Shown here one piece after another: positions 6,422 to 9,566 of a stretch of DNA of 64,000 nucleotides (position 1 is its first letter; each line of letters begins with the position of its first letter). Origin of the DNA: Lyngbya sp. HA4199-MV5 (lineage in GTDB: Bacteria > Cyanobacteriota > Cyanobacteriia > Leptolyngbyales > Leptolyngbyaceae). Under the pieces are notes generated by a model. That model was not told where the DNA came from and ran no database searches. It saw nothing but the letters and a program-made list of their open reading frames with translations. Position numbers and translations under genes: made by a program. The stretch spans positions 1 through 64,000 of the forward strand of contig JAHHHL010000028.1 of the NCBI GenBank assembly GCA_019359375.1, in the 5' to 3' direction.

Positions 6422-6760
6422 TTAGGAATCTTTGAACGTCGATCGCCCCCCAGATTCTGCCCCGTTGACTCCCCCAAGCTGTTGGCGAACGTCATCGATC
6501 GCATCGTTAAGCTGGGCGATTTTATCTTCCAGGCTGCGGCGAGAGGCTTCCATATCGGCTTGACCATTTGCAGTCTTGAGCGATCGACGCTTTGGCTTCT
6601 GACTCAGGCGAGGATCAGCCTGACTGTCATTTAACAATGGTTCCTCAGATTGGGGATTGAGGACTCTAGCCGCAACAACGGCACCCAATGTACCGCCCAC
6701 GATGCTGCCAAAAACAGCGCCCAAGAAAAACCCACTTGCAAAATTGTCTTGCTGGCTCAT
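6422..6760 (-). CDS. Small membrane protein with glycine-zipper segment (YtxH-like)
   Basis: A 112-residue protein whose residues about 9-32 (FFLGAVFGSIVGGTLGAVVAARVL) make one glycine-rich transmembrane helix. A polar variable linker follows, then a short amphipathic helix (ASRRSLEDKIAQLNDAIDDVRQQLG) that could form a coiled coil. The layout resembles YtxH-type stress and envelope proteins and small cyanobacterial thylakoid or plasma-membrane proteins. No catalytic residues are evident. It is followed on the same strand by the YggT gene. Confidence 0.8.
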   Translation of the reverse strand: MSQQDNFASGFFLGAVFGSIVGGTLGAVVAARVLNPQSEEPLLNDSQADPRLSQKPKRRSLKTANGQADMEASRRSLEDKIAQLNDAIDDVRQQLGGVNGAESGGRSTFKDS

Positions 6761-6920
6761 TGCTGATCAAACTCTCGCTTGTATCGTTGAAATCACTTGC
6801 ATTGTCGAATCAATGGTTGCTCTGTCTTCCTCAGTGTCTTTCCCCAGTGTATCGCTACGCTTTCAGACTGCGAAATTTCAAACTGCCGAAACAGGGCTGC
6901 TAAGGCTTTAGGTTAGCATC

Positions 6921-7571
6921 TCATGTACCAAACGTGCGATCGCCTGCATCCCCCAATCCCGGCACGATAAAGCCCTGTGCGTTTAGCCCTTCATCGATCG
7001 CGGCGGCATAGATGTTGAGGCTTGGATATGCCGCACTCAGCTTTTGTAACGCGGTTGGCGCTACAACAACCGAAATGATGCGTACCAGGGCTGGATCGAC
7101 TCCTCGCTGGGTCAATTCTGCCATCGCTGCAATGCTGGTTCCACCCGTTGCTAACATCGGCTCCGTAATTAAAACACGGGTCTGCGGCGCAAACTTCTCT
7201 GGCAATTTGTTGAGATAACAACTTGGCTCCAGGGTTGCTTCATCTCTCACAAAGCCAATATGGTAAATCGATGCCAGTGGCAATAAGGACTGGGCACCAT
7301 CCAATAACGCCAGCCCCGCTCGTAAAATGGGCATCACGACTACCGGAACGGTCGGATCAATAAAGGTCACTGGGCAGGGTGCTAAGGGTGTATCGATGCT
7401 GGTTTCTTGAATGGGCAACCAATCACGAATGGCTTCATAGGTTAACCAGCGACCGAGTTCGGACATGGCACTACGGAACAGCGTGGAAGGGGTTGATACA
7501 TCGCGAGCTACCGCCAACCAATGTTGGATGAGTGGATGGGGTGGGACGTAGACGCGCAGTTGGAGAGTCAT
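6921..7571 (-). CDS. upp: Uracil phosphoribosyltransferase
   Basis: Converts uracil and PRPP to UMP in pyrimidine salvage. The 216-residue protein has the PRPP loop in the form LITEPMLATGGTSIAAM, where many bacterial enzymes have Asp before PML and this one has Glu. The C-terminal uracil-recognition loop reads GFIVPGLGDAGDRTFGT, and a PILRAGLALLDG segment is present, all diagnostic of UPRT. The length is usual. The ATG at 7571 begins MTLQLRVYVPPHPLIQHWLAVARD, the typical N-terminus. It is transcribed away from the candidate small RNA and crtH. Confidence 0.95.
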   Translation of the reverse strand: MTLQLRVYVPPHPLIQHWLAVARDVSTPSTLFRSAMSELGRWLTYEAIRDWLPIQETSIDTPLAPCPVTFIDPTVPVVVMPILRAGLALLDGAQSLLPLASIYHIGFVRDEATLEPSCYLNKLPEKFAPQTRVLITEPMLATGGTSIAAMAELTQRGVDPALVRIISVVVAPTALQKLSAAYPSLNIYAAAIDEGLNAQGFIVPGLGDAGDRTFGT

Positions 7572-7762
7572 AGCTTTCAGGAGATCAGAATGGGGGAAGT
7601 CGTGAACCGAAAAGGGTCTAAATCTGACCTATCATACTCTCTTACTACATCTTGGTTTGGTTCCTTCAGGACTTAACCCGCTACGTCCTGCAAACGGCGA
7701 TTCCTTTTTATGTTTATGCCAGTTGTACCAGCGGCAAGCTCGTTTTGGCTGATACTCTAGAG

Positions 7763-7790
7763 TTGACATAAATTCTCAATAAGCTATAGT
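7763..7790 (+). promoter_or_regulatory. Sigma70-type promoter of the candidate small RNA
   Basis: A TTGACA hexamer at 7763-7768 and TATAGT at 7785-7790, 16 bp apart, are close to the bacterial -35/-10 consensus. Transcription would start near 7797, only about 30 bp before the intrinsic terminator at 7825-7861, which points to a short RNA rather than an mRNA leader. Confidence 0.65.
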
Positions 7791-7796
7791 TGTTTT

Positions 7797-7861
7797 AGTG
7801 TTCTCCTCTCTGAAGGATCGGCAGAGGGATTGGTCAGCCATCAAAGACCAGTCCCTTTTTC
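7797..7861 (+). ncRNA. Candidate small RNA of about 65 nt
   Basis: The interval lies between a consensus-like promoter and an intrinsic terminator and has no room for a normal gene. The predicted RNA would have a single-stranded 5' part containing TTCTCCTCTCT, complementary to AGGAG-type ribosome-binding sites, followed by the terminator hairpin. Short cyanobacterial sRNAs such as Yfr1 have a comparable plan with an unpaired CU-rich motif, but the Yfr1 core ACTCCTCACAC is absent, so it is not Yfr1. The ends are inferred from the promoter and terminator only. Confidence 0.45.
7825..7861 (+). terminator. Intrinsic terminator upstream of crtH
   Basis: Stem AGGGATTGGTC (7825-7835) pairs with GACCAGTCCCT (7846-7856) with one G-T wobble around a 10-nt loop, followed by TTTTTCTTT. 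It is well formed and lies about 145 bp before the crtH start, so crtH probably has its own promoter downstream. Confidence 0.75.
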
Positions 7862-7927
7862 TTTGGCGCTACAGTTGCCTGGTCACTGTGCGATTATTTG
7901 CCTGCATTGAACGCAAGATGGCGATTC

Positions 7928-7955
7928 GTAGGGACGTTACATGTAACGTCCCTAC
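7928..7955. repeat. 28-bp perfect palindrome (GTAGGGACG family)
   Basis: A perfect inverted repeat from GTAGGGACGTTACA to TGTAACGTCCCTAC. The same 28 bases occur inside a longer palindrome at 27403-27438, so this is a dispersed repeat and not a local operator. It sits between the terminator at 7825-7861 and crtH. Confidence 0.85.
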
Positions 7956-8006
7956 AGAAGTCGTGAACTCCGATAAACTGGTGAAAGTCTTGTCTGTGTG
8001 GCTTTC

Positions 8007-9566
8007 ATGTCTTTATCTTCCCAGTCTGCTGAAACATCTGCCTTAACGCGATCGCCCCTCCCATCATCAACTAGTACCGAGTTTGACGCGATCGTCATTG
8101 GTTCGGGTATTGGTGGACTGGTGACCGCTACTCAGTTGGTAGCCAAGGGAGCCAGCGTTTTAGTGCTGGAGCGGTATCTCATTCCCGGTGGCAGTGCGGG
8201 TTATTTTGAGCGGCAGGGCTACCGCTTTGATGTAGGCGCTTCCATGATTTTCGGTTTTGGTCAGCAAGGCACGACTAATTTGCTCACCCGTGCGTTGCAA
8301 GCCGTAAAGGTCAGCCTGGAAACCATTCCCGATCCTGTGCAGATTCATTACCATCTGCCTGATGATCTGGAGCTAAAGGTACATCGGGACTATGAGAATT
8401 TTTTGCAAGAGTTGATTGCATGTTTTCCCCACGAAGCGATCGGCATTCGACGCTTCTACGATGAATGTTGGCGTGTCTTTAACTGCCTTAACGCGATGGA
8501 ATTGCTGTCGCTAGAAGAGCCGCGTTACCTCATGCGAGTCTTCTTTCAGCACCCTCTAGCCTGTTTGGGACTGGTAAAGTATCTGCCGCAAAACGCTGGA
8601 GACATTGCCCGTCGCTACATTCATGACCCAGCGTTGCTGAAATTTATTGATATGGAGTGCTACTGCTGGTCGGTTGTGCCTGCCGATCGCACTCCCATGA
8701 TTAACGCGGGCATGGTCTTTAGCGATCGACATTATGGCGGGATCAACTATCCCAAAGGAGGGGTAGGGCAGATCGCGCAGAAATTGGTCGAAGGGTTAGA
8801 AAAATGCGGTGGGCAGATTCAGTACAAAGCTAGAGTCACCAAAATTCTGCAAAACAACGGACGCGCTGTGGGGGTTGAGTTAGCGTCTGGCAAGGTTTAT
8901 TACGCGAAACGAATCATCTCAAACGCAACCCGCTGGGATACCTTTGAGAAGCTGATTCCAGCCGAAGCGATGCCGCCTACCGAACACAGATGGCAACGAC
9001 GCTATCAAAAATCGCCTAGCTTCCTGAGCCTCCATTTAGGAGTCAAAGCAGATGCATTGCCAGCAGGAACTGAATGCCATCACATTTTGCTCGAAGACTG
9101 GGGACAAATGGAAACTGCTGAAGGCACCATTTTCGTCTCCATTCCAACCCTGCTTGATCCGACCTTAGCGCCGCCCGGTCATCACATCATCCATACCTTT
9201 ACGCCCAGTTGGATCGAGTCCTGGCAACACCTCACCCCTACCGAGTACGAAACTCGCAAAAAAGATGCCGCTGCTCATCTGATCCAGCGACTGGAGCGCA
9301 TCTTTCCAAACCTCTCTGCCTACGTGGATTACCAGGAAATTGGCACTCCACGTACCCATCGGCGCTTTCTGGGTCGTGATGATGGCACCTATGGTCCCAT
9401 TCCTCGACGCAAATTAGCAGGTCTGCTGGGGATGCCCTTCAACCGCACCAGTATCTCCGGGCTTTACTGCGTGGGAGACAGTACGTTTCCAGGACAAGGG
9501 CTGAACGCGGTTGCCTTTTCGGGGTTTGCCTGCGCTCATCGGGTCGCTACGGATTTGGGCTTCTAG
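8007..9566 (+). CDS. crtH: Carotenoid (prolycopene) isomerase CrtH
   Basis: A 519-residue FAD-dependent enzyme of the phytoene desaturase/CRTISO family. It isomerises cis bonds in prolycopene to give all-trans lycopene at the membrane. The N-terminal dinucleotide fold reads [28 protein letters not shown], followed by [24 protein letters not shown]. The C-terminal carotenoid-oxidoreductase signature is visible as [30 protein letters not shown]. The length matches cyanobacterial CrtH and plant CRTISO, and the sequence is closer to these than to CrtI or CrtP. The ATG at 8007 was preferred over an in-frame GTG at 7998; neither has a clear ribosome site. It converges on a small gene that ends 2 bp away. 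Confidence 0.9.

Follow-up and report, generated by a model that had tools for sequence, protein, structure and literature searches.

A conserved small RNA between upp and crtH in Lyngbya sp. HA4199-MV5, almost certainly a copy of IsaR1

Does the unannotated intergenic stretch between upp and crtH in Lyngbya sp. HA4199-MV5 encode a small RNA and, if so, of which family and with which targets? The window that we analyzed is a 64,000-nt stretch of this genome (assembly GCA_019359375.1, contig JAHHHL010000028.1, positions 1 to 64,000 of the forward strand), and the unit of interest had originally been proposed from the letters of the sequence. As set out below, it is a real gene conserved across cyanobacteria, and its almost certain identity with IsaR1 gives a filamentous cyanobacterium a named iron-starvation regulator where no annotation stood before.

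The transcription unit and its conservation

The promoter originally proposed here (TTGACA at 7763, 16 bp, TATAGT ending at 7790) was verified in the sequence and matches 11 of 12 consensus bases. Folding likewise bears out the strong terminator proposed downstream of it, with a stem of 12–13 bp and then TTTTTCTTT; a terminator scan overlooked it because its loop is 10 nt. The predicted start, A7797, lies seven bases past the end of TATAGT, and with a predicted end at T7864 the unit is 68 nt long, in keeping with the short RNA of about 65 nt that had been expected (Table 1). The 5′ part of this RNA had been described as CU-rich and unpaired. The CU stretch is indeed present, but it is not wholly unpaired, since UCCU (nt 8–11) forms a predicted stem with AGGA (nt 18–21), leaving nt 8–11 an unpaired probability of 0.06–0.17, while nt 12–15 sit in the predicted hairpin loop.

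Table 1. Features of the upp–crtH locus (positions in the window) and candidate target genes in the same genome (G000)
Feature	Position	Strand	Basis or remark
upp, uracil phosphoribosyltransferase, divergent neighbor	6921..7571	-	TIGR01091, 225 bits
Sigma-70-like promoter	7763..7790	+	TTGACA 7763-7768, 16-bp spacer, TATAGT 7785-7790; conserved in 36 aligned loci
Fur-box-like 7-1-7 palindrome TGACATAAATTCTCA, candidate repressor site	7764..7778	+	Overlaps -35 and spacer; promoter alignment
IsaR1-like sRNA, 68 nt	7797..7864	+	Model R1, 36-sequence alignment, fold; both ends predicted
Conserved pairing region, nt 1-16	7797..7812	+	Complementary to sufB, petF and sodB start regions
Small 5′ hairpin, UGUU/GGCA and UCCU/AGGA	7799..7823	+	Fold; bases hardly vary
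Intrinsic terminator: 12-bp stem, 10-nt loop, T tract	7824..7864	+	Fold; stem covaries
crtH, carotenoid isomerase, downstream neighbor	8007..9566	+	TIGR02730, 958 bits; alternative GTG start 7998
psaJ, candidate target	L313:1512-1637 (G000)		Exact GAGAACAC complement at start region
ccsB, candidate target	L311:493-1503 (G000)		Exact GAGAACAC complement at start region
Rieske oxygenase, candidate target	L318:514-1503 (G000)		Exact GAGAACAC complement at start region

Promoter-like and terminator-like sequences might arise by chance and yield no RNA. Promoter-like sites are equally frequent in shuffled sequences (one sigma-70-like site was found in 6500–9500, against a mean of 3.4 in shuffles), and folding of the 108-nt region gives a z-score of −1.2; the promoter match alone is therefore not above chance, and the case rests on conservation. 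However, many genera have kept the full set of parts, and the stem of the terminator covaries, so that a chance origin has a practically negligible probability. A 100-base query found matches in 52 of 58 relatives and in 40 of 42 genomes of the order (E up to 1, at which the weakest matches are chance), and the promoter, the CU motif and the terminator, whose joint conservation had been suggested as a check, are all kept in relatives. Among 36 aligned loci, an almost invariant core, AGTGTTCTCCTCTC followed by AGGATCGGCAG (in RNA letters AGUGUUCUC..AGGAU), stands out, with 17 invariant columns. The terminator varies in sequence and keeps its pairing, with two-sided changes in 8 of 10 modelled stem pairs, a covariation score reached by 0 of 500 shuffles; in 75 distinct rows of an alignment fitted to the model, 9 of 10 stem pairs have such changes. 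The 5′ hairpin can form in nearly all aligned sequences, and covariation speaks neither for nor against it because its bases hardly vary.

A covariance model, R1, was built from the transcript alone, leaving out the promoter. It matches 7797–7863 at 80.6 bits, and it also matches 163 of 388 genomes of the class at E 0.01 or better (some of them at E 0.0001–0.01, which may be chance), 36 of 42 genomes of the own family, and 108 of 115 named pattern loci among the matches listed; the remaining seven loci, with non-cyanobacterial titles and no model match, were dropped. By contrast, no Rfam 15 family scored on the window at the gathering threshold, and a permissive Rfam scan gave two chance-level matches at the sRNA locus and nothing else. 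A simple model thus recovers IsaR1-like RNAs class-wide. It has been suggested that some cyanobacteria, for example Trichodesmium, are without such an RNA (passage in PMC12090762), and the R1 model could be used to check this. The plasmid collection held no match to the sRNA, and within the own family R1 found none in six of the 42 genomes (G013, G015, G020, G029, G058, and G059). Four of these six belong to one genus (g15), three of them being at least 95% complete, and a real loss of the sRNA in that genus is possible.

Some genomes carry two copies (G009:C15:5123-5191 and G009:C6:14380-14446; G026:C44:133928 and 137509), and weak second R1 matches occur in G297 and G371. Phormidesmis priestleyi BC1401 also has two (L080, L140), one adjoining upp and the other having neither upp nor crtH beside it. 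A second copy with a different seed or control would merit attention.

Location and probable identity as IsaR1

Family matches at both neighbors agree with the placement between upp and crtH given by the original prediction (Table 1). Among loci testable for flanking genes (at least 900 bases upstream and at least 1200 downstream), divergent upp and downstream crtH on the same strand both flank the sRNA in 57 of 83 named loci (among the matches listed) and 18 of 34 other loci; neither gene is present in 11 of 83 (again among the matches listed) and 2 of 34, respectively. Given that the unit lies on the same strand as crtH and, in most loci, 46–700 nt upstream, it could instead belong to the crtH transcript as a 5′ leader or attenuator, its stem being a regulated terminator, and yield no free sRNA. 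We hold this to be very improbable, because the sRNA is kept without a downstream crtH in 17 of 89 named loci (among the matches listed) and 12 of 35 other testable loci, the distance to crtH varies widely, and conservation is strongest in the 5′ core, which matches distant mRNAs. At 7928–7955, in the gap that separates the sRNA from crtH, inspection by eye showed a perfect 28-bp palindrome, GTAGGGACGTTACATGTAACGTCCCTAC, resembling a dispersed repeat or a small hairpin element.

Taking the unit as a free sRNA, we conclude that 7797–7864 is almost certainly a copy of IsaR1, an sRNA that curbs the synthesis of iron-rich photosynthesis proteins when iron is scarce, and thus adds a member to that known family. 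This assignment is set by length, location, predicted targets and described features, and not by the letters of the published RNA, which a short-string search of the literature texts did not find. IsaR1 was first reported by Georg et al. (2017) in Synechocystis sp. PCC 6803, as related by citing papers. A review table gives its length as 68 nt (PMC6202907), its gene is described as repressed by Fur, with accumulation on iron starvation and widely conserved homologues (PMC7760821), and in Synechocystis 6714 it is stated to be the most strongly iron-induced non-coding transcript (PMC5386190). The RNA described here resembles IsaR1, as so described, in its 68 nt, its wide conservation in cyanobacteria, its candidate Fur-like promoter box and its tie to upp and crtH. 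NC-181, which we take to be IsaR1, is about 70 nt on a northern blot.

The tie to upp and crtH needs some explanation. A 2026 review states, citing the original paper, that IsaR1 "targets upp and crtH" (PMC13414033, section 2 and table). However, the start regions of upp and crtH pair poorly with the sRNA, 84% and 92% of the 232 background genes described below pairing at least as well. Since both genes flank the sRNA here and neither pairs well, the entry would seem to be a garbled statement of the gene location. In all five genomes of one further genus R1 has a weaker match (30–36 bits), which lies upstream of crtH in four, and in none of the five does a match fall near 3164320, the start position published for IsaR1; at one of the loci of this genus (L186) the other flanking gene is ldpA and the motif reads CTCTTCTC. 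From these crtH-adjacent matches and the passage in PMC13414033, we infer that upp–crtH is the location of the IsaR1 gene. The listing of upp and crtH as targets in that passage may be an error liable to be propagated.

Two other cyanobacterial sRNAs were set aside. Yfr1 has a similar length (about 65 nt), but its published gene lies between guaB and trxA, unlike the upp–crtH location here (PMC6202907), and its core motif is absent according to the original prediction. PsrR1 is alike in having photosynthesis genes, including psaJ, among its targets, whereas its length of 131 nt and its other targets, as given in the same source, are different. A class of its own, as had been considered, is unneeded: the short anti-Shine-Dalgarno-like RNA stands, and length, location and predicted targets make it very probably IsaR1.

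Fur-like box and proposed mechanism

When 118 distinct homologous promoters are aligned on TTGA, 114 of them also conserve the bases that follow TTGACA (ATTcTCAATaA), which together with TTGACA form a 7-1-7 palindrome. Each of the 118 comes from a distinct locus where the sRNA adjoins crtH or upp; loci with neither gene, with too little upstream sequence or with duplicate sequence were left out. The first Fur motif was chosen after viewing the alignment, and two consensus sequences, the Fur box TGATAATNATTATCA and a 19-bp consensus, served as a second check. Against the former, the promoters have a mean of 10.3 of 14 matches, compared with 8.0 (sd 1.0) for shuffles; against the latter, 10.9 of 19, compared with 9.9. 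The window's own site has 10 of 14 and 10 of 19, the latter being about the shuffle mean. Judging from this pattern of bases, the sRNA gene is likely controlled by Fur.

We hypothesize that, when iron is sufficient, Fe-Fur would occupy the box over the −35 element and block transcription of the sRNA, whereas under iron scarcity the repressor would leave and the sRNA would accumulate. Through nt 1–16 it could now base-pair at the ribosome-binding and start regions of mRNAs that encode iron-rich proteins, namely the SufB operon, ferredoxin PetF and superoxide dismutase SodB, in many species ChlN, and here perhaps PsaJ and CcsB, and this pairing would lower translation of the targets and save iron. 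RyhB of Enterobacteria is a Fur-controlled sRNA that spares iron and has sodB among its targets. The two RNAs would be alike in working, although no homology is claimed and no Rfam family was matched; RyhB has been drawn as an analogy before (PMC3516471).

Target pairing and the predicted regulon

Published targets of IsaR1 include Fed1, PetJ, SufBCDS, SodB, PetABDC1, AcnB, HemA, and ChlN (as listed in PMC8136909). We compared the start regions of sufB, petF (fed1), sodB, petC, acnB, and chlN in 12 genomes, the genes being found by family search and their starts picked by rule, so that some starts may be wrong (e.g., sufB of G057); for petC, n is 11, as G014, in which only a fragment matched the petA family, was dropped. 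As background we took 232 genes lying on 464 kb of the own genome, and this one set served for all 12 genomes.

The reverse complement of sRNA nt 1–17 is TCAGAGAGGAGAACACT, and the own-genome start regions read CAGAGAACACTGCTCATG (sufB), TTGAGAGGACCACTGCATG (petF) and CAGAGAGAAGAACACATG (sodB). They rank within the best 1.7% (sufB), 1.3% (petF) and 0.9% (sodB) of the background genes, or 5.2, 3.4, and 2.2% when background genes are treated most generously and may each use the best of several starts. The 5% background level was passed by sufB in 6, petF in 11 and sodB in 10 of the 12 genomes, compared with means of 0.18, 0.47, and 0.20 genomes for 60 shuffled RNAs. This likeness to IsaR1 extends to chlN, which passes in 7 of 12 genomes. 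Unlike the published list, however, the chlN start region of the own genome fails the 5% level, and those of acnB (passing in 2 of 12) and petC (1 of 11) are no better than background.

As for the nature of the pairing, the original prediction was of an anti-Shine-Dalgarno-like segment able to pair with AGGAG. Such a segment is there, and its predicted pairing has greater specificity than that of a generic anti-AGGAG, nt 1–16 matching the GAGAACAC(T), GAGAGGA or GAGAGAAGAACAC present in the start regions of targets. An exact complement of at least 8 nt was found in only 1 of 232 background genes, which indicates that the pairing is selective, compared with 7 of 12 genomes for sufB, 3 of 12 for petF and 2 of 12 for sodB; a match at 12 or more of 14 positions is seen with sodB in 8 of the 12 genomes and with 0 of the 232 background genes. 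These figures bear on whether the RNA might be a conserved cyanobacterial sRNA other than IsaR1 that shares its locus and regulates broadly as an anti-Shine-Dalgarno RNA. Its likeness to IsaR1 rests on descriptions and not on published letters, and many AGGAG sites would be within reach of a CU-rich core. Nevertheless, long exact complements are as rare in the background as just stated, and length, location and predicted target genes such as sufB, petF and sodB are the same as those published for IsaR1 in the sources cited above, so we regard a distinct sRNA as improbable.

With the RNA read as IsaR1, its predicted target set is of more interest than the RNA itself, and the sites given here are testable. 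An unbiased scan of the own genome for GAGAACAC with an ATG within 8 bases returned 30 sites, versus 6 for a reversed-pattern control. A frame of at least 40 codons starts at 12 of the 30 sites, several of these frames lying inside longer ones. When 11 of the 12 frames (all but L309) were run against Pfam, six matched: SufB, PsaJ, CcsB (also TIGR03144), a Rieske-domain oxygenase, a lactonase-like propeller and a KilA-N protein. Four of these six genes concern iron, heme or photosystem I. From their start-region complements, psaJ, ccsB and the Rieske oxygenase gene are candidate targets outside the list given in PMC8136909.

Tentatively, the IsaR1 regulon of this lineage might have been rewired, with SufB, ferredoxin and SodB kept, start-site pairing with acnB, petC and the own chlN missing, and PsaJ, CcsB and the Rieske oxygenase added. 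If so, a single 16-nt seed would act simultaneously on Fe-S assembly, on the maturation of heme proteins and on photosystem I. The Rieske oxygenase gene is also the background gene that bears the longest complement.
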